Below are positions 1 through 20,120 of a stretch of DNA of 20,120 nucleotides, piece after piece. Every line of letters begins with the position of its first letter. Positions within the stretch are counted from its first letter, which is position 1. Below the pieces are notes generated by a model, which was not told where the DNA came from, did not search any database, and saw nothing but the letters and a program-made list of their open reading frames with translations. The translations under genes were made by a program, and so were the position numbers. The stretch covers positions 1 through 20,120 of IMG/VR virus record IMGVR_UViG_3300012920_000375, one strand, 5' to 3'. This stretch comes from a virus.

Positions 1-193
1 CCCGGTTAAAGAGGTCATCATATTGTTCAAGGTGGAGCAAATTAATGTCTGCACGACCTTCCGGTGGAAATCTACCTTTCCTCTGATCCGCTTCCCGCTT
101 TTTATTGATCTTATATCTCGCGGTTTTGATTGCGCTTAATATTTTCATGCAATCAGCCCAAGTAAGATCCATTGACTCTGTGTCAACACTCAT
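1..193 (-). CDS. Unknown small phage protein, 3' end outside window
   Basis: Only the first 64 residues are in the window; the reading frame stays open to base 1. The ATG at 193 follows a GAGGG Shine-Dalgarno-like stretch, and the stop of the neighbouring minus-strand gene lies 10 bases upstream, so the two are probably one transcript. The visible part is hydrophilic, with a short acidic N-terminus (MSVDTESMDL), a Trp/Cys segment and then a basic patch (around residues 26-41) rich in Lys and Arg. There is no signal peptide or membrane segment. I do not recognise the family. Confidence 0.6.
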   Translation of the reverse strand, partial: MSVDTESMDLTWADCMKILSAIKTARYKINKKREADQRKGRFPPEGRADINLLHLEQYDDLFNR

Positions 194-203
194 GACTTAT
201 CCC

Positions 204-896
204 TCAATGGCCGTAGCCATGCTCCTCGAAATGTTCCAAACCACGGTCACGCATTGGCGATGCATTGAAACAACGCCACTGGTCAAACGTCACCTGATGC
301 AAACTCTGTGGACCTTCACGCGACTCACCAAACCCACTGATCCAATCAGCCGCTTCAAACCAGTCCGTGAATATCTTAATGCCCTCCGACTCACACAGAT
401 CACAGTCCCGAGACCAGTGGTAAAAGAATATCGACTCACGCAACTTCTTCTCACGATGCCATTCATATGTCTTCATCGACTTGACCAACTTTTCAAAGAA
501 AATAGGAGCAGGAAACTGGGGCCAATGGTTCGCGTCCCACATACCTAGTTGAAAGATTAGATCTGCTTCAATCCACATGTCAGGTTCTGAATCAGCAGTT
601 TGATCGAATGCAAAAGGACTGAACTCATACTCTACTTGTGTGAGCCACCCCTTTGCGTTATCACGAGAATGATCCATCGCGGCACACCACGCCGGTGAAC
701 CGGGTTCCTCACGCATAACGTCTCCGTTGGCGGCAGAATACATTTCTACCAGAATATAGGTGTCCTTGTAGTTGCGGCGCTCTCTTACCGGACCAAGAAC
801 CTTGGCCCATGACGTATGATAGTCCACACCTTCGTAACGAAAATCGCCCACATAAGAAGAGCATTTGAGAAGGTAGTCTGGGTTATACTGCAACAT
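204..896 (-). CDS. Unknown 230-residue protein, Trp-rich
   Basis: The ATG at 896 follows a perfect AGGAGG ribosome binding site at good spacing, and a sigma70-like promoter lies just upstream (929-958). The protein is soluble-looking, acidic and unusually rich in tryptophan and other aromatics. It has a CDLC cysteine pair in the C-terminal half and no membrane segment. It is the first gene of a minus-strand unit that continues into the partial gene at 1-193. Its position, transcribed away from the terminase genes with its own promoter, suggests an accessory or early gene rather than a virion part. I do not recognise a family. Confidence 0.75.
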   Translation of the reverse strand: MLQYNPDYLLKCSSYVGDFRYEGVDYHTSWAKVLGPVRERRNYKDTYILVEMYSAANGDVMREEPGSPAWCAAMDHSRDNAKGWLTQVEYEFSPFAFDQTADSEPDMWIEADLIFQLGMWDANHWPQFPAPIFFEKLVKSMKTYEWHREKKLRESIFFYHWSRDCDLCESEGIKIFTDWFEAADWISGFGESREGPQSLHQVTFDQWRCFNASPMRDRGLEHFEEHGYGH

Positions 897-928
897 TGTT
901 AGTCCTCCTGTTATATTTACCCAAGTAC

Positions 929-958
929 ATTATGATGTTGCATCACATAGTATGTCAA
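929..958 (-). promoter_or_regulatory. Sigma70-like promoter of the 204-896 unit
   Basis: On the minus strand there is a perfect TTGACA (-35, plus-strand 953-958), an 18-base spacer and CATAAT (-10, plus-strand 929-934). An A-run lies just upstream of the -35, as in an UP element. A 15-bp inverted repeat (932-946) sits in the spacer and touches the -10 box. Confidence 0.7.
932..946. promoter_or_regulatory. Operator-like inverted repeat, copy 1
   Basis: ATGATGTTGCATCAC on the plus strand is an imperfect member of the ATGAT-N5-ATCAT family: one arm is ATGAT and the other ATCAC. It lies between -35 and -10, where a bound repressor would block RNA polymerase. Similar sites lie at 2991-3005 and 3837-3851. 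Confidence 0.55.
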
Positions 959-1104
959 GCAATTTTTTCTTAATGCCTGAGTTTTTTACATAAGGGTTTC
1001 TGTACGAAAAAATAAAAAAGTTTTTTTTTATTTCAAATTTGGTGTGACGAGTGTAAAAGTGTGACGAAAACTACTGAGTTGCCCAGACAACGAGGTTTCC
1101 AGCC

Positions 1105-1224
1105 CGTAACGTTTTTTTGCATTTCGTAACGTTTGTAACACTTCTTTATATATAAACTCATCGCATTTCCCATTTGATTTAACAAATGTTAGCTTTCCAC
1201 AAATCATCCGTAACGTTTGTAACA
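1105..1224. repeat. Direct repeats CGTAACGTTTGTAACA before the small terminase gene
   Basis: Two identical 16-base copies lie at 1125-1140 and 1209-1224, 84 bases apart. A 10-base partial copy lies at 1105-1114 and a looser relative (CGTAACGAGCGTAAAC) near 1272. Each full copy contains GTAAC-type words in tandem at 9-base spacing and an AACGTT palindrome. The last copy ends 14 bases before the terminase start. They may be sites for a regulator or for small-terminase binding (pac-type sites are often near this gene); neither is shown by the sequence. Confidence 0.6.
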
Positions 1225-1238
1225 GGTAACCCATACTC

Positions 1239-1775
1239 ATGAATGAGAAAGTTGTTTCCAAAATAGAAGAGCGTAACGAGCGTAAACTGACTAATCGTCA
1301 ACGTGAATTTGCTAAATATTTCGTAGAGGGCATTTATTCAAATGCCGAGTGTGCAAGAAAGGCAGGATTTTCTCCGACAGTTGCTCACATCCAAGCGTCT
1401 AAATTAATTAACGGCAGAGATTTTCCGCATGTTTTGGATTACATAAAGGAACTGCGAGAAGAAAGAGAGCGCCGTTATGGAGTGACGTTGGTTGGGCAAA
1501 TGAAGCGACTCGATGAACTTTCGAGAGCGGCAGAGGATGCTGGGCAGTATTCAGCCGCGATTAACGCTGAAAAGATTCGTTCCGCTCTTGGTGGTCTGAC
1601 TATTGATAGAAGAGAGACTATTAATAAATTGGATGACATGTCTCGCACAGAAATAGTTGCTAGGTTGGCGGATCTTCAAAAGCGATATCCTGCGGCTTTC
1701 ATTGAGGGAGAGTTCAAAGATGTCACGGGGACCCGAGGCGAACTTTTGGAACATAGTCCGGAAGAATCTGCCTAA
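1239..1775 (+). CDS. terS: Terminase small subunit (DNA recognition)
   Basis: This protein would recognise phage DNA and bring it to the large subunit for packaging. Residues 17-57 (LTNRQREFAKYF, then a segment with SNAECARKAGFS and a following helix) form the helix-turn-helix region typical of phage small terminases. A charged helical stretch (about 65-120) fits the oligomerisation region, and 178 residues is a normal length. The ATG at 1239 has only a weak upstream AGG; no better start exists in frame. The end of the gene overlaps the start of the nuclease gene by 56 bases. It is unusual in lying more than 5 kb from the large subunit, with unrelated genes on both strands between them. Confidence 0.8.
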   Translation: MNEKVVSKIEERNERKLTNRQREFAKYFVEGIYSNAECARKAGFSPTVAHIQASKLINGRDFPHVLDYIKELREERERRYGVTLVGQMKRLDELSRAAEDAGQYSAAINAEKIRSALGGLTIDRRETINKLDDMSRTEIVARLADLQKRYPAAFIEGEFKDVTGTRGELLEHSPEESA

Positions 1776-2157
1776 AGGCAGTCAAGCTTGGCGTTTAGAA
1801 AATCGTGTTGCGGCAGGCATGCCTGATTGTTATTTGATGATTAGTGGTCATCCATTGTGGATTGAGCTAAAAGTAACAAAATCTAATAGTATTAAACTAT
1901 CGCCACAGCAAATCGCTTGGCATACCGCTCATAGCCACGTAGGAGGTCATAGTTTGATCTTAGTAAAGAGGTCCTCGACGGGAGTGCTATTTTTATTTGA
2001 GGGCCGTGATGCTCGGGACATTGCCTCTCAGGGCCTACTTTCGGAGCCTATTTTTTCGGGTGTCGGGGTTCGGGACGCAATAGACGCGGCCATTGATTCG
2101 GTTCGGGGTCATTTCGGGGCTTTATTCGGGTCGGGTTCGGTTCGGGGCTATAAATAG
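1720..2157 (+). CDS. PD-(D/E)XK nuclease, VRR-NUC / resolvase-like
   Basis: A small nuclease, 145 residues, probably acting on branched or linear phage DNA during replication or packaging. The core motif is visible: Glu28, Pro35-Asp36, then 12 residues on Glu49-Leu-Lys51, followed by LSPQQ (60-64). This is the arrangement of VRR-NUC and phage Holliday-junction-type nucleases. I chose the ATG at 1720 because GGGAG precedes it by nine bases; an upstream in-frame start would only add a tail read through the terminase gene. It is probably co-transcribed and translationally linked with terS. The last 45 codons are oddly packed with TCGGG words and encode a Gly/Ser-rich tail (FGSGSVRGYK) beyond the nuclease fold. 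Confidence 0.75.
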   Translation: MSRGPEANFWNIVRKNLPKGSQAWRLENRVAAGMPDCYLMISGHPLWIELKVTKSNSIKLSPQQIAWHTAHSHVGGHSLILVKRSSTGVLFLFEGRDARDIASQGLLSEPIFSGVGVRDAIDAAIDSVRGHFGALFGSGSVRGYK

Positions 2158-2160
2158 AAA

Positions 2161-2176
2161 CCCCCGCGAACGGGGG
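2161..2176. terminator. Strong GC hairpin after the nuclease gene
   Basis: CCCCCG, loop CGAA, CGGGGG: a perfect 6-bp stem starting four bases after the nuclease stop. There is no T-run on the plus-strand side, so it may terminate weakly or protect the 3' end of the message. Read on the minus strand it is followed by TTTCTATTT. Confidence 0.5.
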
Positions 2177-2183
2177 TGTGGGT

Positions 2184-2201
2184 AGTAGTTGGAGGACTAC
2201 T
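2184..2201. repeat. Hairpin AGTAGT-TGGAGG-ACTACT
   Basis: Perfect 6-bp inverted repeat with a six-base loop that contains a ribosome-binding-site-like GGAGG. GGAGGACTA also occurs as the real leader of the genes starting at 896 (minus) and 4090 (plus), but no start codon follows here. Confidence 0.4.
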
Positions 2202-2218
2202 GAAACGGATTATCGGTG

Positions 2219-2242
2219 AAAAAGGCCCTATTGTCTAGGGCC
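2219..2242 (-). terminator. Rho-independent terminator of the GP88 gene
   Basis: On the minus strand GGCCCTA, loop GACAA, TAGGGCC is followed directly by TTTTTC. It is a 7-bp perfect stem with a U-run, eight bases beyond the stop at 2251, between convergent genes. Confidence 0.8.
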
Positions 2243-2250
2243 GAGGTTTG

Positions 2251-2964
2251 TTATGCGGCGGCTATTAGTTCCGGATTGTCGATAATGAAAGGCGACTTGG
2301 ACCGTTTCGCTTCGTGGCCTTTAACGCGTAAACCGATGACACTGTCGATTTGTTCGAGGTTCGCGATATCTGAAACATCGCCATCATATACCGGGCGGCC
2401 TAGAAACTTGGTAGGCAAGCCGCCGCGGAATACTGCGGTGATTGGTACGCGGTGGTTTAGTGCCCGGTTTACTTGATTTGCGAATCCTGGGGCCTTTGAG
2501 TAGCTAAACATTAGCCGGTAGTTCTTTGGTGTCTTGCCGAGTCGTGCCGGTAATTTGGTGTAGTCATACGAAAACAAGGCGCGGAATTCATCCGCGAAAT
2601 CAATATAGTTTTCCCAAGGGATATCGGAAAGAACATTTAACCGCGTGACCGGTACGACGTTTTGACGGTCACATAGTTTTATAAAGTTACGTAGCTCTTT
2701 CTTAAGCTGGACTAAAAATCCGTCTCGGTCTAAATGCCAGAATGCGGAACGTGCGGTTCGTCCGTCGATAACGTTACGCATAACGCCGCGCCCGCTCGAG
2801 CGCAAACAATCCGCCGCGCATTCTGCAAGATTACGCGCCGGGCACAGTATGTTATCCGGCATTAGTGACAAGGAAAGTATGCGGATTTTAGAACCGCCTA
2901 CTAGACTCTTTTCTGATTTCGCGACTTTGGTGTTCGTCGCGTCGATGCTAGATAGTCTCTGCAT
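2251..2964 (-). CDS. GP88-family phage protein (function unknown)
   Basis: I recognise the pattern of the 'gene product 88' family of phages and mobile elements. Residues 26-36 (KIRILSLSLMP) lead into a cysteine block at C41, C49 and C53 followed by SSGRG. Next come RLNVLSDIPWE (108-118), YDYTK (133-137), LGKTPKNYRLMFSYS (about 142-156) and GRPVYDGDVSD (189-199). The family has no proven function that I know of; the conserved cysteines could bind metal. I chose the ATG at 2964 over an in-frame TTG at 2982 because GGAG lies nine bases before it. The gene stands alone, with its own promoter (2996-3024) and terminator (2219-2242), transcribed against the neighbouring nuclease. That is the layout of a self-contained cargo gene. 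Confidence 0.75.
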   Translation of the reverse strand: MQRLSSIDATNTKVAKSEKSLVGGSKIRILSLSLMPDNILCPARNLAECAADCLRSSGRGVMRNVIDGRTARSAFWHLDRDGFLVQLKKELRNFIKLCDRQNVVPVTRLNVLSDIPWENYIDFADEFRALFSYDYTKLPARLGKTPKNYRLMFSYSKAPGFANQVNRALNHRVPITAVFRGGLPTKFLGRPVYDGDVSDIANLEQIDSVIGLRVKGHEAKRSKSPFIIDNPELIAAA

Positions 2965-2990
2965 GGTTATAGTCTCCAACAATTAACCCA

Positions 2991-3005
2991 ATGATATTAC
3001 ATCAT
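2991..3005. promoter_or_regulatory. Operator-like inverted repeat, copy 2
   Basis: ATGATATTACATCAT: perfect 5-bp arms ATGAT/ATCAT with a 5-base centre. It overlaps the -10 box of the GP88 promoter. Confidence 0.6.
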
Positions 3006-3024
3006 ACTACATTATATAGTGCAA
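2996..3024 (-). promoter_or_regulatory. Sigma70-like promoter of the GP88 gene
   Basis: Minus strand: TTGCAC (plus-strand 3019-3024), 17-base spacer, TGTAAT (plus-strand 2996-3001), with AAAAAA just upstream of the -35. A perfect TATAAT also occurs on the minus strand at 3011-3016 and could be an alternative -10. Confidence 0.6.
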
Positions 3025-3032
3025 GCTTTTTT

Positions 3033-3115
3033 GGTTCGGGTTCGGGTCGGGTTCGGGGCCATATATTCTAAACACGCCAGGCCAGGCCGGGCCCGCCCGC
3101 CCACCCACCCACCCA
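3033..3115. repeat. G-tract plus CCCG/CCCA tract module, copy A
   Basis: The left part (3033-3057) is built of GGGTTC and GGGTCGGGTTC words, with four TCGGG. After an AT-rich spacer and a GCCAG tandem (about 3076-3086) comes a pure 4-base microsatellite at 3092-3115: CCCG twice, then CCCA four times. Four G3 runs with 2-3 base loops on the plus strand, and G3 runs with 1-base loops on the minus strand, both meet the usual G-quadruplex pattern. It sits directly upstream of the GP88 promoter. Confidence 0.85.
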
Positions 3116-3126
3116 ATACAGAAGCT

Positions 3127-3149
3127 AAAAAAAGGGGCCTTGCGGCCCC
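3127..3149 (-). terminator. Rho-independent terminator of the 3155-3805 operon
   Basis: Minus strand: GGGGCC, loop GCAA, GGCCCC, then seven T. Perfect 6-bp stem with a GNRA tetraloop, five bases beyond the stop codon of the last gene. Confidence 0.85.
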
Positions 3150-3154
3150 TGGTC

Positions 3155-3316
3155 TTATTTTAAGATATGCCTTAGTTCTTTAAGAACGCAGTGCTCTATC
3201 TCTTCATCTGTCGCGAGCGCTTCATCGCGCATTGCTTCAACAAATTCTCGAAGCTGGTCACACAACAGATTGGACTCGAGCTCTTGGATTTTCTGGTCTC
3301 CGCTTATGTCTCTCAT
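3155..3316 (-). CDS. Tiny acidic helical protein, 53 residues
   Basis: A 53-codon gene too short for common length cut-offs but well supported. Its ATG overlaps the stop of the upstream gene (ATGA at 3313-3316), GGAG stands six bases before it, and a terminator follows its TAA. The product (MRDISGDQKIQELESNLL...) is strongly charged, acidic and predicted helical throughout, with one Cys near residue 19 and one near 43. No family is recognised. It is the last gene of a three-gene minus-strand operon whose members are all small and acidic, which suggests early, regulatory or host-interfering proteins (inference only). Confidence 0.75.
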   Translation of the reverse strand: MRDISGDQKIQELESNLLCDQLREFVEAMRDEALATDEEIEHCVLKELRHILK

Positions 3317-3582
3317 AAACTCTCCGTGACGTAATTTATCTTTTCTGTCTGCACGCTACCTTGGAGCACCATATCTAATGGATCGATACACTGCTTAATA
3401 TAGTCCTTAATAACGTCCGGATGGACATCTGGATTTATCTCATCGGAACCGCGATGGTTTGCGATATCTTCTGCTGTAACTTCTTCCCCGTTAAATCCAT
3501 CGAGGTCTATATAGACCTCGAAGGTTAAAGAAACGGTGAATTCAGTGTGCGCCAATGGCGTGCCTTCTTCACTATTCTTCAT
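3313..3582 (-). CDS. Unknown acidic protein, 89 residues
   Basis: The ATG at 3582 follows GGAG by ten bases and overlaps the end of the upstream gene by 11 bases; a longer frame to 3651 has no ribosome binding site. The protein has alternating hydrophobic residues in FTVSLTFEVYIDLDGFNGEEVTAED (about residues 15-39, a likely beta hairpin). A helix rich in Asp and Ile (about 55-72) and a short beta-like C-terminus follow. This is reminiscent of small phage proteins of mixed alpha/beta fold. Family not recognised. It is the middle gene of the 3155-3805 operon. Confidence 0.75.
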   Translation of the reverse strand: MKNSEEGTPLAHTEFTVSLTFEVYIDLDGFNGEEVTAEDIANHRGSDEINPDVHPDVIKDYIKQCIDPLDMVLQGSVQTEKINYVTESL

Positions 3583-3805
3583 TGTGTAATAACTCCAACA
3601 GTTCGTTAATATGTTCAATGTCGCATCCACTAAATAATGAATCCTCAACATTCTCCAAAGTTTCTACCCAATCATCGACAATGTAATCGACCTCCATCTG
3701 GACATCTATTTCGTCTTTGATATCGCTAGACAATTCATCAAGTAGATTGCGTGCCTGACTAACAAGGTCATGGGCTTTTTTGATCTTTTCTAAATGTTCT
3801 TCCAT
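3572..3805 (-). CDS. Unknown acidic coiled-coil-like protein, 77 residues
   Basis: The ATG at 3805 has a strong GGAGG six bases upstream, so I prefer it to the in-frame ATG at 3838, which lies inside the promoter. The product (MEEHLEKIKKAHDLVSQARNLL...) is almost entirely helical, with heptad-like leucines in the first 30 residues. It has a very acidic second half (DYIVDDWVETLENVEDSLF) and a single Cys. Net charge is strongly negative. First gene of the three-gene operon. A function such as DNA mimicry or binding to a host protein would fit its size and charge but is speculation. Confidence 0.75.
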   Translation of the reverse strand: MEEHLEKIKKAHDLVSQARNLLDELSSDIKDEIDVQMEVDYIVDDWVETLENVEDSLFSGCDIEHINELLELLHNEE

Positions 3806-3829
3806 AGTTTTCCTCCAATTACCTTTTAC

Positions 3830-3857
3830 ATGATACATGATTCTGCATCATACGCAA
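3830..3857 (-). promoter_or_regulatory. Sigma70-like promoter of the 3155-3805 operon
   Basis: Minus strand: TTGCGT (plus-strand 3852-3857), 16-base spacer, TATCAT (plus-strand 3830-3835), with an A-run just upstream of the -35. Spacing and boxes are weaker than in the other two, but the same inverted repeat fills the spacer. Confidence 0.5.
3837..3851. promoter_or_regulatory. Operator-like inverted repeat, copy 3
   Basis: ATGATTCTGCATCAT: perfect 5-bp arms around a 5-base centre, lying between the -35 and -10 of the operon promoter. Confidence 0.6.
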
Positions 3858-3866
3858 CTATTTTTT

Positions 3867-3965
3867 GGGTCGGGTTCGGGTCGGGTTCGGGTCGGGTTCG
3901 GGGCATTTAAAAAGCTTGACACAGCACGGCCCGCCCGCCCGCCCGCCCGCCCACCCACCCACCCA
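3867..3965. repeat. G-tract plus CCCG/CCCA tract module, copy B
   Basis: Three exact tandem copies of GGGTCGGGTTC (3867-3899) end in GGGG. After a 26-base spacer comes a microsatellite at 3930-3965: CCCG five times, then CCCA four times. The order, spacing and wording match copy A at 3033-3115, but both parts are longer. It also lies directly upstream of a minus-strand promoter. Both strands can form G-quadruplexes by the usual sequence rule. Confidence 0.9.
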
Positions 3966-3987
3966 GGCATTTAGATACCTAGGACTG

Positions 3988-4015
3988 TTGATGCAATGCA
4001 CAAAACAACTAATAC
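3988..4015 (+). promoter_or_regulatory. Possible promoter of the 4090-5318 unit
   Basis: TTGATG (3988-3993), 16-base spacer, TAATAC (4010-4015). Moderate match only; it is divergent to the promoter at 3830-3857. Confidence 0.35.
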
Positions 4016-4017
4016 CA

Positions 4018-4039
4018 ATGTAGTATGACATTATGTGAT
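4018..4039. promoter_or_regulatory. Relative of the operator elements upstream of the 4090 gene
   Basis: Its first 11 bases (ATGTAGTATGA) are identical to the sequence running into operator copy 2, read on the minus strand. TATGTGATG (4033-4041) is shared with the minus strand at operator copy 1. The ATGAT/ATCAT arms themselves are degenerate. Confidence 0.35.
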
Positions 4040-4047
4040 GTTACCTG

Positions 4048-4071
4048 CTAAAATGACTTTAGTCATTTTAG
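4048..4071 (+). promoter_or_regulatory. Perfect 10-bp hairpin in the leader of the 4090 gene
   Basis: CTAAAATGAC, loop TTTA, GTCATTTTAG. It ends one base before the AAGGAGG ribosome binding site (4073-4079). It could be an RNA stem controlling translation or message stability, or a 24-bp DNA dyad bound by a protein. There is no T-run after it, so it is not a terminator. Confidence 0.6.
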
Positions 4072-4089
4072 TAAGGAGGACTATTGAGT

Positions 4090-4359
4090 ATGAGTAAAGC
4101 ACTTTTCAAAACACCTGTGCGAGTCTCGCGCCTGACCACCGTGGATCAGGTCGCGTGGCTCAGAGATTATGCGAAGTCGATTGATGCCGCGATCAAGGCC
4201 GCGCAACAGGCCGCTGTGGATGAAGGCCTCGCCGAATGGCAATTTTCAGACCGCGAGACCTCGCCGAATAAGGCCACGTTTATTCTTGAGTTTGGCGAGG
4301 CCAAATGGTCTCAAATGTGTACCCGTTCACAACGTAGAGATTGGAGGATTAAAAAATGA
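4090..4359 (+). CDS. Unknown 89-residue protein
   Basis: AAGGAGG lies ten bases before the ATG at 4090; a TTG six bases earlier is the less likely start. The N-terminal half (residues 15-50) is a helix rich in Ala, and the C-terminal half has short beta-like segments (KATFILEFGEAKW) before a basic end. It is more GC-rich in the third codon positions than the structural genes, which hints at a separate origin. It is the first of four plus-strand genes with good ribosome binding sites and one terminator. No family is recognised. Confidence 0.7.
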   Translation: MSKALFKTPVRVSRLTTVDQVAWLRDYAKSIDAAIKAAQQAAVDEGLAEWQFSDRETSPNKATFILEFGEAKWSQMCTRSQRRDWRIKK

Positions 4360-4616
4360 ATGAGTTACAGAAACTGCTGGATGGTATGGGTATCGCTGAT
4401 ACCCGTCGTTATCAAATCGAAAACGCGCTCGCCGCTTGTCATAGTGCGTTCGCGCCGCTTGATGACACCAACCGCGAGCTAGTCGTAGAGAAGCTACCGT
4501 TCTTGGCGCAGTGCGCCCGCTTCTATGGCTTACACTCCGTTGCGTGCAACACGTTCGAGAACGAAAACATCGTCATGCCCGACGATCCAATCAAAGAAAT
4601 CTTAGACAATCTGTAA
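4356..4616 (+). CDS. Unknown 86-residue protein
   Basis: Starts at an ATGA overlap with the previous gene (4356-4359) and has GGAGG eight bases upstream, so the two are translationally coupled. It is predicted to be mostly helical, with an Ala/Leu-rich centre and two cysteines in the middle plus one near residue 64. No membrane segment and no recognised family. Like its neighbour it is GC-rich in codon use. Confidence 0.7.
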   Translation: MNELQKLLDGMGIADTRRYQIENALAACHSAFAPLDDTNRELVVEKLPFLAQCARFYGLHSVACNTFENENIVMPDDPIKEILDNL

Positions 4617-4628
4617 AGGAGAAAGTAA

Positions 4629-4862
4629 ATGGAAACGCTTAGAAATAGAGTTGGATATACCCCCAAAGAAATGGTGCTTATGCAAGTAGTCGACACCTTG
4701 ACCGCGTTAGTCCAAGAGCCAGAAAGGGAATTGCCACATTCGGCTGAAATGACTGAGAAGGAAATAGCCCGCGCCAGAAAGTCTGCTGAAAGGCTAAGAC
4801 GTTCTCTGGCTGAAAAATGGGGCCTAGACATCACACCAATTGACGTACAGCAAAACGTGTAG
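4629..4862 (+). CDS. Unknown charged helical protein, 77 residues
   Basis: AGGAG stands seven bases before the ATG. The product is fully helical in appearance: a hydrophobic helix (about residues 12-29, PKEMVLMQVVDTLTALV) and then a long amphipathic Arg/Lys/Glu helix (about 40-64, with EKEIARARKSAERLRRSLA). This suggests a small coiled-coil or nucleic-acid-associated protein. No family is recognised. It is the third gene of the 4090-5318 unit. Confidence 0.65.
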   Translation: METLRNRVGYTPKEMVLMQVVDTLTALVQEPERELPHSAEMTEKEIARARKSAERLRRSLAEKWGLDITPIDVQQNV

Positions 4863-4883
4863 ATCCTTTAGAGGAGGTAGATC

Positions 4884-5318
4884 ATGAGTAAAAAAGCATT
4901 TGCGTTGACTGAGGAAACGCTCGAGTATGTACAGCCAAATGGCTTCTGTTTTCACGCGGTGCATTTGAGTTTGGGTGCGCCGTGGGCGAGAGGGCGTGAT
5001 CCGATCTCAGCCATTCGACATTGTACCTATAGATCTCCATCGCTGGTTGCCGTCGCGTACGGAAAATTTGGAGACTTAGAAACCACCGAGATGGCTACTT
5101 TTTCATGGGAGAAAACAGCACCATCTCCCGTTGGTGTTTTCGTTGTGACCTCTAGCAGTATCAAACCCTTTTCGAAAGATATACCTAAGAAATTGAGAGA
5201 CCAGTTACATGCCCATGAGTCTGATTACTCAGACCAATGGATTGACCGGTTCCACAAGAGGGTTGAGGAGTGGAGGGAGCGGGGCAGGCAACGGAGAAAA
5301 AAGAAACTAGCCAGTTAA
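4884..5318 (+). CDS. Unknown 144-residue protein with basic tail
   Basis: GAGGAGG lies seven bases before the ATG. The first 100 residues look like a mixed beta/alpha domain (FCFHAVHLSLGAPWARG, SLVAVAYGKFG, VGVFVVTSSS). The last 30 form a strongly basic helix (VEEWRERGRQRRKKK), which could contact nucleic acid. It is the last gene before the terminator at 5352-5385. No family is recognised. Confidence 0.7.
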   Translation: MSKKAFALTEETLEYVQPNGFCFHAVHLSLGAPWARGRDPISAIRHCTYRSPSLVAVAYGKFGDLETTEMATFSWEKTAPSPVGVFVVTSSSIKPFSKDIPKKLRDQLHAHESDYSDQWIDRFHKRVEEWRERGRQRRKKKLAS

Positions 5319-5351
5319 CCTGGGGGTTACTTGCCCTAATCGGGTCGAGTC

Positions 5352-5385
5352 GGGGTGGTTCCTTCGGGGGCCACCCCCTTTTTTT
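5352..5385 (+). terminator. Strong terminator with UUCG loop
   Basis: GGGGTGG-TTCC, loop TTCG, GGGG-CCACCCC: an 11-bp stem (two G-U pairs) capped by a UUCG tetraloop, followed by seven T at 5379-5385. It closes the 4090-5318 unit. It is preceded by TCGGG words (5340-5355) like those in the repeat modules. Confidence 0.9.
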
Positions 5386-5388
5386 GCC

Positions 5389-5407
5389 GGGCCGCCGCCA
5401 GCGGCCC
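5389..5407. repeat. Second GC hairpin after the terminator
   Basis: GGGCCGC, loop CGCCA, GCGGCCC: a perfect 7-bp stem right after the T-run, without its own T-run. The rest of the gap to 5483 holds a possible -10 (CATAAT at 5442-5447) without a convincing -35, and an AGGAG at 5454-5458 too far from the next start. Confidence 0.5.
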
Positions 5408-5483
5408 ACCCTCCCGCCCTGGTTTTATATTTTCATTGAGGCATAATTTCATTAGGAGTCCCTAGGGCCGAGAAAAATCGCGC

Positions 5484-5909
5484 ATGTATTTTCATTTGAG
5501 TACCGAGCAGAAAGGGTTGTTGAAAGACACTCTTTGGTTGATGAAGCAGTCTGACTATCACCGGAGGATGTCTTTGGAGAAGATGCGGACCTATGTCCTT
5601 GGACCTTTGCTCAACAACAAACTGCTCGTGGTCCACGGATCTGGTGGTGAGCCTTTTGGTTTTTGCACGTATGCATTTTTGCCCTCGGACCGTGAATCTT
5701 TGTACATGTCTCGTCCTGGATCTTTAGACATTAGTGATTTTGAGTCGGAAGATGGTACTCTATGGTGTATTGATTTTGCCGCGCCTAATGGAGGGTGCCG
5801 GTCTATTATTCGGAGGATGCGTGAATTCTTTGAGATGCGATATGGTCATGGCACCAAGGCACGTATTTTCCGGACCCGCAAAAATCGTTATGGTTGGATG
5901 TATTCATGA
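5484..5909 (+). CDS. HlyC-like (RTX toxin-activating) lysine acyltransferase
   Basis: The HlyC family moves a fatty acyl chain from acyl carrier protein to internal lysines of a target protein. The 141-residue product follows HlyC almost end to end. LWLMKQSDYHRR (17-28) matches the segment carrying the HlyC catalytic His (here His26), and LLVVHGSGGEPFGFCTYAFLP (47-67) matches the '..PVAYCSWANL' strand. LWCIDFAAPNGG (93-104) matches the 'WFIDWIAPFG' motif with the catalytic Asp (here Asp97). SIIRRMREFF (107-116) and KARIFR (125-130) match the C-terminal MR..F and RAIRV elements. The ribosome binding site is weak, but an in-frame stop at 5463 rules out a longer start. No RTX protein is in the window. 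The following gene starts in an ATGA overlap. Confidence 0.75.
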   Translation: MYFHLSTEQKGLLKDTLWLMKQSDYHRRMSLEKMRTYVLGPLLNNKLLVVHGSGGEPFGFCTYAFLPSDRESLYMSRPGSLDISDFESEDGTLWCIDFAAPNGGCRSIIRRMREFFEMRYGHGTKARIFRTRKNRYGWMYS

Positions 5910-7120
5910 GACTGAACCCTTTCGCACCGAATGATAACCCGATGGATCAAGTTCTTTTCTGCTTTGGTAGTGGAGAGGAGACTGGTGGTGGTTCCGCTGG
6001 TGACTTTGACGATACCGTCAGACTTTCAGGAGACGATAGACCGAAGTATGAATCTGAAATAGAAAAGGCCGCTAAAAGCATTGCTGGAGGTGACAATTAC
6101 GAGAACGTGTTTGCGAATAATCCGGCGGCTTTTGCTGAACTTGAGAAAAGGTTAGCAGAACCGACGGGACGACCGGCATTTACAGACGCTCTTCCTGATA
6201 TGGCTTCAGGCAAAAACATAGGTGATAATCAATCAGCACCCGTGAATATCAAATCTTTAGTGTCAGAGCCTGACCGTCAAGCATTGATAAATACAGAAGA
6301 TAGAGTCTTAGAAATGCTGGAAAGGCAGAAGTTGGCTCGAGATCCTGACGTTGGAGAACCCACTCGACCTCCATCATCTGACAACTTAGATGATGGTGAT
6401 CTCGATACACCTGACGTTGATATTTTTGACACGGCCTTTACAGGTGGTGCCACTCCTGCGGACCAGATTATTGAGCAGGCTCGAAATCCTGATTTCTATG
6501 TTGGTGATTTGGACCCTTCGGGTCAAGGTCCTGATTTTTTGGTTGGTCCTAAAGTTACTCCTGAAATTGACCTAGAGATACAAAAACAAGCTGGAAAAGG
6601 CCCAAGAGATGAAGGCCTAGGTGCGTTGCTTAAACCGGGCGGTATTGTTAAAAATATTTTCGAGGACTTAACAAACAGAAACGCGGCCTTTGCGCGTGAG
6701 GTGCAAAGACCCGGTAACCGGTTTCAGAGAGATGCTGAAGGCACTATAACTGGTGTTTACAACCCTCAGTCGAATGCTGTCTTTACTCCAGGAAACGTAG
6801 GTCTTTTTGATTTAAAAGGTCAGGAAAGGGCCGCGGGCGATTTGTATGACATGCAACGTGCCGAGCAAGAAAGGCGTATGGGACGTGCCGGGGATGATCA
6901 GCCTGTAGTAGCATCAACCGCTCCCATGACACCGGAGGCGGTAACTCCAGAAGAGGTAGCTCAAGGTTTTCCAATCACTGCTCCGGGTGCCATACCTCCG
7001 TTTTTTGGACCGTATAGTCCGGCAACGCAGTACACGGGAATTGCAGGGCTACCTCAGTTTACGTTACAACCGACATATACCGCGCCGACAATGTTTTCTC
7101 CGCTGTATAACATTGGTTGA
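5906..7120 (+). CDS. Unknown acidic, Pro/Gly-rich protein, 404 residues
   Basis: The ATG at 5906 overlaps the stop of the acyltransferase gene (ATGA), so translation of the two is probably coupled; a TTG 12 bases earlier is less likely. The first 200 residues are very acidic and look disordered (many Asp, Gly, Pro and Ser). Then comes LLKPGGIVKNIFEDLTNRN (about 243-261). The C-terminal 60 residues are Pro/aromatic-rich (FPITAPGAIPPFFGPYSP). Low-complexity proteins of this kind just before the large terminase are common in marine phages, but I know no function. By position it could be a virion or head-assembly protein, and it is the nearest candidate substrate for the acyltransferase (inference). 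Confidence 0.65.
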   Translation: MRLNPFAPNDNPMDQVLFCFGSGEETGGGSAGDFDDTVRLSGDDRPKYESEIEKAAKSIAGGDNYENVFANNPAAFAELEKRLAEPTGRPAFTDALPDMASGKNIGDNQSAPVNIKSLVSEPDRQALINTEDRVLEMLERQKLARDPDVGEPTRPPSSDNLDDGDLDTPDVDIFDTAFTGGATPADQIIEQARNPDFYVGDLDPSGQGPDFLVGPKVTPEIDLEIQKQAGKGPRDEGLGALLKPGGIVKNIFEDLTNRNAAFAREVQRPGNRFQRDAEGTITGVYNPQSNAVFTPGNVGLFDLKGQERAAGDLYDMQRAEQERRMGRAGDDQPVVASTAPMTPEAVTPEEVAQGFPITAPGAIPPFFGPYSPATQYTGIAGLPQFTLQPTYTAPTMFSPLYNIG

Positions 7121-8589
7121 TGAACACAGCCGCACTTGAAGTACTTCCAGAAGAGGTTCTCAAAGAGATCCTTGCGCTAAAAGAGGCAGAAATACGTCTC
7201 GCGACCCGCGAAAAAGCTCAAGAAGAGTTCATGCCATTCGTGCATCATGTCTATCAGAACTTTATTGAGGGCCGTCATCACCGGATTATTGCTGAAAAAC
7301 TAGAGAGAATAGCGCGTGGAGAGCTAAAAAGGCTGATTGTGAACATGCCACCGCGTCATTCTAAGTCAGAATTTGCGTCATACCTCATGCCAGCGTGGTT
7401 TTTGGGCCGAAATCCCAAGCTAAAGATCATTCAGGCCACTCATAACACCGAACTAGCGGTCAGATTTGGTCGAAAAGTACGAGATTTGATGGGATCAGAC
7501 GAGTATCGTGATGTTTTTCCACAAACCATGTTAAAAGCTGATGATAAAGCGGCTGGTCGGTGGGGCACAGAAGCCGGTGGTGAGTATTTTGCCGCTGGTG
7601 TGGGTGCGGCGGTCACTGGTCGTGGCGCAGATTTGTTTATTATTGATGATCCGCACTCAGAACAGGACGCTTTGAGTGAGTCGGCGTTTGATAACGCCTA
7701 TGAGTGGTACACATCTGGTCCTCGTCAGCGTTTGCAACCAGGCGGAGCGATCATTTTGGTCATGACGCGGTGGGGAATCAAGGATTTGACGGGCCGTTTA
7801 CTCAGGGCACAGGGCGATGATGTCATGAGTGACGAGTGGGAAGTCGTTGAGTTCCCTGCAATCATGCCGTCAGACAATCCGTTATGGCCTGAGTTCTGGA
7901 ACAAAGAGGATTTGTTGAAGGTCAAGGCCGCGTTGCCGCTTGCCAAGTGGAATGCTCAGTGGCAACAGAACCCGGTGGCCTCAGAAGGCGCAATAGTTAA
8001 GAAAGAGTGGTGGAATCTTTGGGAAAAAGAGGAGATCCCGCCGGTCTCTTACATTATGCAGAGCTATGACACGGCATTTTCTAAAAAAGAGACGGCTGAC
8101 TACTCGGCAATCACCACCTGGGGCATCTTTCAACCTGAAGAGGGCGGTGCAGACCACATTATCCTGCTAGATGCTCGAAAAGGCCGTTGGAACTTCCCGG
8201 AACTCAAAGAAATTGCGCTTGAAGAGCATGATTATTGGGAACCGGACATGGTTTTGATTGAAGCAAAGGCTACGGGCACGCCGCTAACCGACGAATTACG
8301 CAGGACAGGAATACCTGTTGTGAATTATACTCCGTCAAAAGGCCGTGATAAGGTGACTCGAATGCATATGGTCGCTCCAATGTTTGAAGCAGGCATGGTG
8401 TGGGCACCTGAGAAGAAATTTGCCGAAGAAGTCATTGACGAGTGTGCGGCATTTCCGATGGGAGATTACGATGACCTTGTTGACAGCATGACGATGGCGT
8501 TGATTCGCTTTCGACAGGGTGGGTTCATCTCGCTGGACGGCGAAGATGACGAAGAAGACTACATTTCGACAGCGAGAGAGTATTATTGA
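7120..8589 (+). CDS. terL: Terminase large subunit (packaging ATPase and nuclease)
   Basis: This is the motor that pumps DNA into the prohead and cuts it. The N-terminal ATPase shows a Walker A variant NMPPRHSKS (about residues 75-83), a Walker B ADLFIIDD (170-177) and a motif near ILVMTRWG (212-219). The C-terminal RNase H-like nuclease shows Asp317 in QSYDTAF, Glu381 in LIEAKATG and Asp455 in DDLVDSM. Length 489 is normal, and all key residues are present. The ATG at 7120 shares one base with the previous stop. It is separated from terS by more than 5 kb, but followed directly by the portal region as usual. Confidence 0.95.
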   Translation: MNTAALEVLPEEVLKEILALKEAEIRLATREKAQEEFMPFVHHVYQNFIEGRHHRIIAEKLERIARGELKRLIVNMPPRHSKSEFASYLMPAWFLGRNPKLKIIQATHNTELAVRFGRKVRDLMGSDEYRDVFPQTMLKADDKAAGRWGTEAGGEYFAAGVGAAVTGRGADLFIIDDPHSEQDALSESAFDNAYEWYTSGPRQRLQPGGAIILVMTRWGIKDLTGRLLRAQGDDVMSDEWEVVEFPAIMPSDNPLWPEFWNKEDLLKVKAALPLAKWNAQWQQNPVASEGAIVKKEWWNLWEKEEIPPVSYIMQSYDTAFSKKETADYSAITTWGIFQPEEGGADHIILLDARKGRWNFPELKEIALEEHDYWEPDMVLIEAKATGTPLTDELRRTGIPVVNYTPSKGRDKVTRMHMVAPMFEAGMVWAPEKKFAEEVIDECAAFPMGDYDDLVDSMTMALIRFRQGGFISLDGEDDEEDYISTAREYY

Positions 8590-16016: not shown

Positions 16017-16634
16017 ATGGCTAACGTGAACGTAGCGTTCGGTATGAAGCCGATCAACCTGGCTGGCGGTGCCCCCAACAGCACAGGAACTAACGCATAC
16101 TTCATCAAGTCAGACGCCAGTGCGATTTATCAAGGTTCACCGGTCATTGCTACTAATGATGGCACTATTGCTATTACTGGTTCAGCGTCCGGGGACACTT
16201 ATAAGCACATCGGCGTATTTGCTGGCTGTGAGTATGTATCTTCAACAACAGGCAAGAAAGTTTTTGCGAACATCTGGCCTGGATCAGGTGCGGACACGAA
16301 TTTCGACATTGTCGGATTTGTGTACGATAACCCAACTCAGCGGTTTATAATTGCAACTGATGCAACATTTACAAACCGTGCAACTGCTATTGCGGCAATT
16401 TTTGAAAATACTCAGTTCAATACTGCAACTTCTGGTTCCACTACAACTGGTATTTCTTCAGCTTCAATGGATGTTGCGACATTGGATGCAACTAATGCGT
16501 CCCTGCCCCTCAAGATTTTGGGTCTCTATGACGATCCAGAAAATGTGGATTACACAGCGGCAGGTGCAAGCATTGTTGTGATGTTTAACAATCACGCTTT
16601 ACTGTCTAACGACGTAGAAACTGTAGTGTCTTAA
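16017..16634 (+). CDS. Probable structural protein next to the capsid gene, 205 residues
   Basis: Good ribosome binding site (AGAGGTG) before the ATG. The sequence is Ala/Thr/Gly-rich with alternating hydrophobic residues (GMKPINLAGGA, YQGSPVIATNDGTIAITG, HIGVFAGCEYV), as in beta-rich capsid accessory or decoration proteins. No signal peptide. It is placed between scaffold and capsid genes in a highly expressed operon. It could be a head-decoration protein or a minor capsid component; the sequence alone does not decide. Confidence 0.7.
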   Translation: MANVNVAFGMKPINLAGGAPNSTGTNAYFIKSDASAIYQGSPVIATNDGTIAITGSASGDTYKHIGVFAGCEYVSSTTGKKVFANIWPGSGADTNFDIVGFVYDNPTQRFIIATDATFTNRATAIAAIFENTQFNTATSGSTTTGISSASMDVATLDATNASLPLKILGLYDDPENVDYTAAGASIVVMFNNHALLSNDVETVVS

Positions 16635-16648
16635 AGAGGGGTTAGATA

Positions 16649-17560
16649 ATGGCTATTTCTCGCGCACAACTAGCGAAAGAACTTGAGCCGGGACTCAATG
16701 CCCTCTTCGGCATGGAGTACGCCAAGTACGAAAATCAACACTCAGAAATATTTACCACTGAGGCTTCAGATCGTGCATTTGAAGAAGAGGTAATGCTTTC
16801 AGGCTTTGGAGCCGCTCCGACTAAAGCGGAAGGTTCTGCTGTCACTTTTGACGATGCCAACGAAGCATTCACCGCTCGGTATAATCACGAGACTATTGCT
16901 CTAGCATTCTCGATCACTGAAGAGGCAGTTGAGGACAATCTGTATGATCGTATCTCGGCTCGCTACACTCGTGCTCTTGCTCGTTCAATGGCTCATACCA
17001 AGCAAGTCAAAGCGGCTTCAGTACTGAACAATGCGTTCTCTGCTGGTGCTAACGCTGGTGGCGACGGTGTAGCACTTGTGTCTGCATCACACCCACTGAC
17101 TTCTGGTGGTACTTTCTCCAACACTCCATCAACTCAGGCTGACCTGAATGAAACATCTCTTGAAGATGCGTTGATCAGTATCGCTGGCTTTGTTGATGAG
17201 CGTGGTCTGAAAGTAGCACTGCGCGGCACTAAGCTGATTATTCCACGTCAGCTTCAGTTCGTAGCAGAGCGTCTGATGAACACTCAACTTCGTGTTGGTA
17301 CAGCAGACAATGACATTAACGCACTTCGTTCTATGGGAATGTTGCCCGGCGGATACGCTGTCAATGACTTCCTGACAGATCCAGACGCGTTCTTTGTCAT
17401 GACAGATACACCTCGTGGATTCGTTCACTTTGAGCGGACGGCACTTTCCACTAACATGGAAGCCGACTTTGACACAGGCAACATGCGCTATAAGGCGCGT
17501 GAGCGTTACAGCTTTGGATTCTCCGATCCACGCTGTGTGTTTGCTTCTCAAGGTGCATAG
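16649..17560 (+). CDS. Major capsid protein (HK97 fold)
   Basis: Main shell protein, 303 residues. The N-terminal helix segment (LAKELEPGLNALFGMEYAKY), the early strand with EGSAVTFDDANEAFTARYNHETIALAFSITEEAVEDN and the helix SARYTRALARSMAHTKQVKAASVLNNAF are typical of HK97-fold major head proteins of the Mu gpT-like kind. LIIPRQLQFVAERLM, MGMLPGGYAVNDFLTDPDAFFVMTD and the C-terminal RERYSFGFSDPRCVF point the same way. The ATG has GAGGGG upstream. The gene is followed by two strong terminators, as expected for the most abundant transcript. Confidence 0.9.
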   Translation: MAISRAQLAKELEPGLNALFGMEYAKYENQHSEIFTTEASDRAFEEEVMLSGFGAAPTKAEGSAVTFDDANEAFTARYNHETIALAFSITEEAVEDNLYDRISARYTRALARSMAHTKQVKAASVLNNAFSAGANAGGDGVALVSASHPLTSGGTFSNTPSTQADLNETSLEDALISIAGFVDERGLKVALRGTKLIIPRQLQFVAERLMNTQLRVGTADNDINALRSMGMLPGGYAVNDFLTDPDAFFVMTDTPRGFVHFERTALSTNMEADFDTGNMRYKARERYSFGFSDPRCVFASQGA

Positions 17561-19871: not shown

Positions 19872-20120
19872 ATGGCCGAAAAAAAAGTTTACACCGAAGC
19901 ACAATTTAAGAGTCTTACAGGTGATCTTAAAAAACTTCGAGCAGAGTTAGCAAAACTAAAGAAAACTAGTCCTAGCAGGCCTCCAGTAATGAAGAAAGCC
20001 AAGGGTGGAATGATTAAGAAAGCCAAGGGTGGAATGATTAAGAAAGCCAAGGGTGGAATGATTAAGAAAGCCAAGGGTGGAATGATTAAGAAAGCCAAGG
20101 GTGGAATGATTAAGAAAGCC
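19872..20120 (+). CDS. Lysine-rich protein with KKAKGGMI repeats, partial
   Basis: The ATG at 19872 has AAAGGAG eight bases upstream. The first 33 residues contain a coiled-coil-like helix (EAQFKSLTGDLKKLRAELAKLKK), then a short SPSRPP linker, then tandem KKAKGGMI units that continue past the window end. The 83 visible codons are all open. Short Lys/Gly/Met repeats like this occur in marine phage proteins of unknown role, often near the tail or capsid genes. Confidence 0.65.
   Translation, partial: MAEKKVYTEAQFKSLTGDLKKLRAELAKLKKTSPSRPPVMKKAKGGMIKKAKGGMIKKAKGGMIKKAKGGMIKKAKGGMIKKA
19989..20120. repeat. 24-bp tandem repeat inside the last gene
   Basis: A 21-bp first unit (19989-20009, lacking one ATT codon) is followed by four identical 24-bp units (20010-20105) and 15 bases of a fifth at the window end. 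Each unit is eight codons, so changes in copy number keep the frame. The units visible are identical at the DNA level, which points to recent expansion or ongoing homogenisation. Confidence 0.95.

Follow-up and report, generated by a model that had tools for sequence, protein, structure and literature searches.

Tandem arrays of a short word border the small leftward accessory genes that lie near the DNA-packaging genes of marine podoviruses related to Pelagibacter phage HTVC027P. What the arrays have in common is a private word, one orientation and one set of places, not G-richness. A trans-acting reader accounts most simply for this combination, and with a probability of roughly 45% we take the arrays to be oriented multi-site operators or insulators, read by a protein with stoperator-like logic, a function that we infer from sequence comparison.

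The window, by which we mean the whole stretch of 20,120 bases analysed (IMG/VR virus record IMGVR_UViG_3300012920_000375), is a fragment of a marine podovirus related to HTVC027P. Its terminase large subunit (TerL, 7117-8589) is 85-90% identical to those of the best contigs in our collection and about 61% identical to those of HTVC027P and phage 023Pt_psg01. Most relatives are fragments, and the promoters and terminators given here are consensus predictions. In the window and its relatives the order is terS (1239-1775 in the window), a VRR-NUC-like gene whose 3′ end carries array A, the leftward GP88-like gene, array B at the GP88-like promoter, leftward cargo, array C at the cargo promoter, rightward genes, site D and the structural operon. 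The arrays lie at the borders of the small accessory genes in this zone between terS and the late operon. The GP88-like gene (2251-2982, minus strand; Pfam PF17338, E 6.5e-24), the counterpart of HTVC027P gp33, lies between arrays A and B. The variable cargo consists of three small leftward ORFs (3155-3838, minus strand: 3155-3316, 3313-3651 or a shorter start, and 3572-3838), for which protein BLAST found no shared family among the compared zones. At the end of the window (19992-20120) a perfect 24-bp coding tandem repeat (KKAKGGMI, 5.4 copies) runs off the contig, probably marking an assembly break.

Read leftward, the three word-array sites of the window (A, B and C) are tandem CCCGA cores. 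Array B (3033-3058, minus strand) has four cores (CCCCGAACCCGACCCGAACCCGAACC leftward, GGTTCGGGTTCGGGTCGGGTTCGGGG on the plus strand) and is connected by an A-tract linker (AAAAAAGC/CC, 3025-3032, minus strand) to the predicted promoter of the GP88-like gene (2996-3024, minus strand; -35 TTGCAC at 3019-3024, 17-nt spacer, -10 TGTAAT at 2996-3001). Shortly ahead of site B the leftward cargo operon is closed by a hairpin terminator with a T7 run (3133-3150, minus strand). Array C (3867-3903, minus strand; six cores in 11-bp 5+6 units, GGGTCGGGTTC on the plus strand) stands at the predicted promoter of the cargo operon (3830-3857, minus strand; -35 TTGCGT at 3852-3857, -10 TATCAT at 3830-3835), whose 16-nt spacer contains the palindrome ATGATGCAGAATCAT. 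Array A (2055-2147, minus strand; eight units with leftward CCCGA cores) is located within the 3′ end of the plus-strand VRR-NUC/endonuclease-like gene, where it follows the terminators of the leftward GP88-like gene; hairpin terminator-like sites occupy the interval at 2160-2177 (minus strand) and 2224-2242, and no promoter follows the array. A typical border read leftward comprises a stop codon, a hairpin terminator with a T-run, the array, an A-rich linker, the -35 and the -10.

Word arrays B and C are each paired with a plus-strand C-rich array, (CCCG)2(CCCA)4 at 3092-3115 after a 33-nt spacer and (CCCG)5(CCCA)4 at 3930-3965 after 26 nt. The original prediction described these two pairs as one composite element; its coordinates (3033-3058/3092-3115 and 3867-3903/3930-3965) and unit counts are exact and far beyond chance, and the G-rich word arrays do abut a T-run (the minus-strand A-run) beside a plausible predicted minus-strand promoter. 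Both sites are real, but the count of two overlooked the third word array (2055-2147) and a third C-rich array (5405-5419). At three mismatches or fewer, GGGTCGGGTTCGGG has 11 matches, whereas shuffled sequence gives 0.83 on average and 0 of 100 shuffles reach 11; CCCnCCCnCCC occurs three times on the plus strand of 1-7117, with 0.016 expected under a first-order Markov model. A palindrome, TGATGnnnCATCA, sits between the -35 and -10 of leftward promoters (window 933-945, L020 5590-5602, L081 5849-5861), including that of the 204-896 gene, which has no array, and CACAAnnnnTTGTG takes its place in the GCAGG phages L006 and L108. It looks like a second, group-specific operator.

Across relatives the array sites are kept and the word is replaced. 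The word is CCCGA in the window, L016, L020, L081, L110, L045 and L048, GCAGG in L006, L107, L108, L119, L011, L025, L041 and L069, and CAAGC followed by two free bases (7-bp spacing) in HTVC027P and most contigs fetched with gp33 (dozens). Relatives were inspected for loss of the element at the same promoters: an array is present there, but its word has been replaced. Assembly error is not the explanation, as numerous independent contigs show the same anatomy, and so do the deposited HTVC027P and 023Pt_psg01 genomes. The 5-mer overlap of arrays (bounded according to TRF tables, or manually in two contigs) is 0.83 within genomes versus 0.23 between them, and 0 of 2000 label permutations reach the within-genome value. 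Between the window and L006 it is 0.00, despite identities of 88-89% for TerL and 83% for the GP88-like protein. All arrays of one phage have a single orientation, sense to the leftward genes, and in HTVC027P every minus-strand tandem CAAGC falls in one of three clusters around gp33 and gp34. Unit number differs between arrays and between close relatives, as proposed (six in L045, five in L046). The GP88-like gene is present but an array absent in L112, L113, L115, L116 and L118. Neither the array words in a phage context nor a G-quadruplex or intergenic phage element of the same build was found in the literature, searched mostly through open-access papers.

Two annotations were noted during this comparison. 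In the part of HTVC027P (MN698241) spanned by 16216-16587 and 16499-16747, a plus-strand VRR-NUC-like ORF lacks annotation, and the annotated gp32, on the opposite strand and overlapping the repeat array, may not be a real gene. The L081 contig (NZMJ01000079.1), which was placed in the bin of a Maricaulis MAG, represents a phage of the window's group (TerL 85%), and the host assignment is doubtful because the array word in that MAG is confined to this contig.

The arrays are tied to promoters. In most phages with the CCCGA or GCAGG word, 8-10 nt separate the last core from the predicted -35. Site C of the window computes to 15 because its last unit, CCC, lacks GA; from that CCC to the box is 9 nt. 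In HTVC027P the distance is 0 nt, the array running into TTGACA, and at least three AAGC words stand upstream of TTGACA in 58 of the 64 HTVC027P-like contigs with this box. At site B of L025 and in L045 and L048 the array is not near a good -35. Within the window's group, 9/9 same-word pairs remain homologous from the GP88-like start codon up through promoter and array (-74 or further), whereas 12/12 different-word pairs of similar gene divergence lose homology at that codon or close to it (descriptive counts, the pairs and arrays sharing ancestry and members). As the extent of homology follows the word, promoter and array are replaced together. A published transcriptome study that does not discuss the arrays groups HTVC027P gp33 and gp34 in a separate expression cluster with high levels at 6-9 h (PMC12753301); they are exactly the array-preceded genes of that phage.

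The arrays adjoin variable leftward cargo genes, and they could be recombination borders, short shared stretches that serve, or persist, for exchanging cargo cassettes among phages with the same word; we regard this reading, the main rival to an operator, as doubtful but of real weight. None of the window's cargo ORFs has a relative in the zones compared. For 118 pairs of close HTVC027P-like phages, chosen by a GP88-like gene identity of 85% or more, homology is 0.96 at -50, 0.58 at -100 and 0.37-0.44 from -200 to -350, and is back near -1250; of 82 breakpoints no more than 300 nt from the -35, 47 lie inside the array. Comparison of L108 and L119 shows a cargo gene that differs up to its stop codon, with the terminator, array and promoter then shared. 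The homology pattern thus fits cassette exchange at the borders, with no implication that the arrays cause it. However, fast divergence of the arrays may make their ends mimic breakpoints, and the pairs are not independent. Direct repeats at several sites would, moreover, delete the intervening gene, and recombination leaves the conserved 5-bp core, the free linkers and the tight placement at the -35 unexplained. Two of the roles first suggested, transcription insulator and cassette-exchange signal, each have some support.

The constraint on core and linker was determined from 40 distinct HTVC027P-like arrays, using heptads upstream of an anchor and not requiring the word. The five CAAGC positions of the unit nearest the anchor carry 1.6-2.0 bits. 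Over the two nearest units core positions hold 0.8-2.0 bits and linker positions 0.1-0.6 bits, and the core remains well above the linker (0.1-0.6 bits) in the other units too. The gap from one CAAGC to the next is exactly 7 bp in 237 cases; successive linkers are identical in just 14 of 110. With the 5-bp core conserved and the 2-bp linker free, the CAAGC arrays are not plain slippage, which can account for the regular spacing but leaves such a constraint unexplained, and they do not resemble a simple microsatellite, whose units are alike throughout and most alike between neighbours. Neutral simple-sequence expansion, in which a local word multiplies by replication slippage and stays uniform through copying from site to site, is consequently improbable. 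It would accommodate the copy numbers that vary between close relatives, the different (CCCG)n at the two sites and the reach of array A into a coding 3′ end; it sits poorly with unrelated words occupying identical sites in distant relatives and with the absence of arrays elsewhere in HTVC027P.

The original prediction pointed to G-quadruplex potential and listed a supercoil-sensitive switch among the possible roles; the arrays would then act as a G-quadruplex or i-motif switch upstream of the promoters. By sequence, both strands of the window arrays do satisfy the G-quadruplex rule, the minus strand with 1-nt loops, and the GCAGGGTC arrays of L025 and L041 do likewise. At the same positions, however, CAAGCNN arrays contain zero G3 tracts and GGCCGCAGG arrays are mostly G2. 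The G3+ tract pattern expected of a G-quadruplex regulatory element is therefore present in the window but not conserved at the sites of its relatives. Such folding potential is not supported as the working principle and is most probably a by-product of the word used by the window's lineage; a switch of this kind is very unlikely.

The two-part element is real, and is found at the same places in L016, L020 and L081, but it is not a fixed composite, since the parts occur separately. Word arrays are present and the C-rich array absent in L006, L041 and HTVC027P, and the C-rich array that precedes the structural operon has no G-word array with it. (CCCG)n(CCCA)4 is a separate element, distinct from the word arrays. 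It always lies on the plus strand, with three copies in the window zone. The AT-rich zone of 023Pt_psg01 contains five where 0.006 are expected, and the rest of the 50 kb of that genome examined contains none. The CCCN stretch has the look of a microsatellite; the core and linker analysis covered CAAGC arrays only. A search of IMG/VR with the exact two-part pattern, as had been proposed, was too strict and gave 0 matches; a looser pattern gave four, two of them known relatives and two on contigs of 128 and 350 kb, of which the one inspected falls in coding sequence. At site D the C-rich array CCCACCCTCCCGCCC (5405-5419) is fused to the block GTTTTATAnnTTCATTG...ATAATTTCATT (together 5405-5465, plus strand), preceded by a terminator hairpin with an 11-bp stem and a T7 run (5352-5377, plus strand). 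In 11 contigs this block is conserved ahead of the structural operon. No clear -35 box is seen in it (CCCACCCTCCCGCCCnnGTTTTATAnATTCATTG...ATAATTTCATTGG) in the window or those 11 contigs, and it is possibly a late promoter dependent on an activator.

Pairing of the G-rich and C-rich halves in read-through transcripts, as a terminator or stability element, is about as unlikely as the G-quadruplex switch. The halves can form a long imperfect stem (-37.7 to -54.1 kcal/mol) and the arrays follow terminators, but the stability is mostly derived from composition (z -0.71 to -2.29), dialects without the C-rich array are unable to form the pairing and there is no Rfam match. Least likely of all is a host-matched Chi-like 5-mer (AddAB/RecBCD) near the packaging start: oriented 5-mers, one per phage, near terS and presumably at recombination borders would suit it, but the G-rich strand points in opposite directions among dialects, Chi needs no tandem spacing, and the bacterial genomes searched lack such arrays (single Chi sites lay outside that search). 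A host-derived, STRR-like repeat was sought in 289 alphaproteobacterial genomes, a sample of one class, and no array-rich genome was found; a GCTTGAA array occurs in 0 of the 289, and TCGGGTTCGGGTTCGGG in 11, which have 1-2 matches each once the phage contig in the Maricaulis MAG is set aside.

The operator/insulator reading starts from what is directly observed, namely positions, orientation, one word per genome, the core and linker constraint, co-replacement with the promoter and cargo turnover beside the arrays; from these we infer reading by a protein, a DNA rather than an RNA signal, and a regulatory effect. The arrays would be iterated, oriented recognition sites, a 5-bp core with a short free linker, marking the borders of leftward accessory transcription units in the terS-terL zone. 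Each would come behind one unit's terminator and, if a promoter stands next, a short distance upstream of that promoter's -35. The reader may be a sequence-specific protein, encoded by phage or host, that binds the cores cooperatively, sets the output of the leftward promoter and, in the fashion of stoperators, holds back polymerase reading through from the adjacent unit. A phage would keep one word because one factor would have to read all its sites, and a change of factor would lead to replacement of promoter and array as a single unit. Interchangeable border modules of promoter, array and terminator would also permit swaps of cargo. Against an operator stand the variation in spacing among dialects (5-8 bp), unusual for helically phased sites, and site A, which has no promoter and lies inside coding sequence. 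Local candidates for the reader were considered: across the window, L006, L020 and L081 the word is tracked by neither TerS nor the VRR-NUC protein, and the same goes for the GP88-like protein and the 204-896 product. The AlphaFold model of the GP88-like protein is of low confidence (pLDDT 64), with weak barrel-like matches and no DNA-binding fold. Avoidance of the core elsewhere in HTVC027P (11 occurrences against 30 expected from a Markov model) was dropped as an idea because codon usage explains the deficit (10 against 13.3 ± 3.2 with synonymous codons shuffled).

Tandem short conserved cores at regular spacing are known from iterons, multi-site operator arrays and the hexamer clusters of P1-type pac sites. 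The border arrays share this build and a location near a packaging gene, but occur at several sites between units and have their word replaced between close relatives. Beside terS the window has 9-bp repeats (1042-1067, 1105-1140 and 1209-1224; GTGTGACGA..., inverted CGTAACGTTTGTAACA) with counterparts in L006, L081, L028, L030 and L041. Their word varies independently of the border word: the window and L006 share the GTGTRACGA type and differ in border word, and for L020 the reverse holds. These repeats are a candidate TerS/pac site or origin iteron, and a better pac candidate than the border arrays. Cyanobacterial STRR heptamers are likewise intergenic tandem repeats with lineage-specific words, but are spread genome-wide in the host; the border arrays occupy few phage sites, and the 289 alphaproteobacterial genomes contain nothing comparable. 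Moron-type accessory cassettes are, like the border-array cargo, small variable genes that have their own promoter and terminator and run opposite to the main operons; a shared private-word array at each border is not known from morons.

The nearest described logic is that of the stoperators of Cluster A mycobacteriophages (L5, Bxb1, TipsytheTRex). Each genome has several of these asymmetric sites, located in promoters and short gaps between genes, with one orientation relative to transcription and a lineage-specific consensus; they are single 13-bp sites across the genome, read by the immunity repressor (PMC6550527, PMC9283540). HTVC027P is described as lytic (PMC11066056). The border arrays are also lineage-specific, asymmetric and of one orientation to transcription, but are built of tandem 5-bp cores in one zone (three clusters in HTVC027P) rather than of dispersed 13-bp sites. 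Since site length, tandem build and confinement differ, we do not claim that the arrays are stoperators.

HTVC027P-type pelagiphages infect SAR11, which is among the most abundant bacteria of the ocean. The arrays may bear on the timing and insulation of accessory genes in these phages, and they separate a real regulatory signal from an eye-catching but incidental G-quadruplex. One word at all borders of a phage predicts a single reader that should be findable. More tentatively, a large group of marine podoviruses may use a border code in which a private 5-bp word marks the ends of accessory units for one phage-specific reader, word and promoter are exchanged together and cassettes are interchangeable within a dialect. 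The border word would also be a sequence tag predicting which phages can trade cargo genes.
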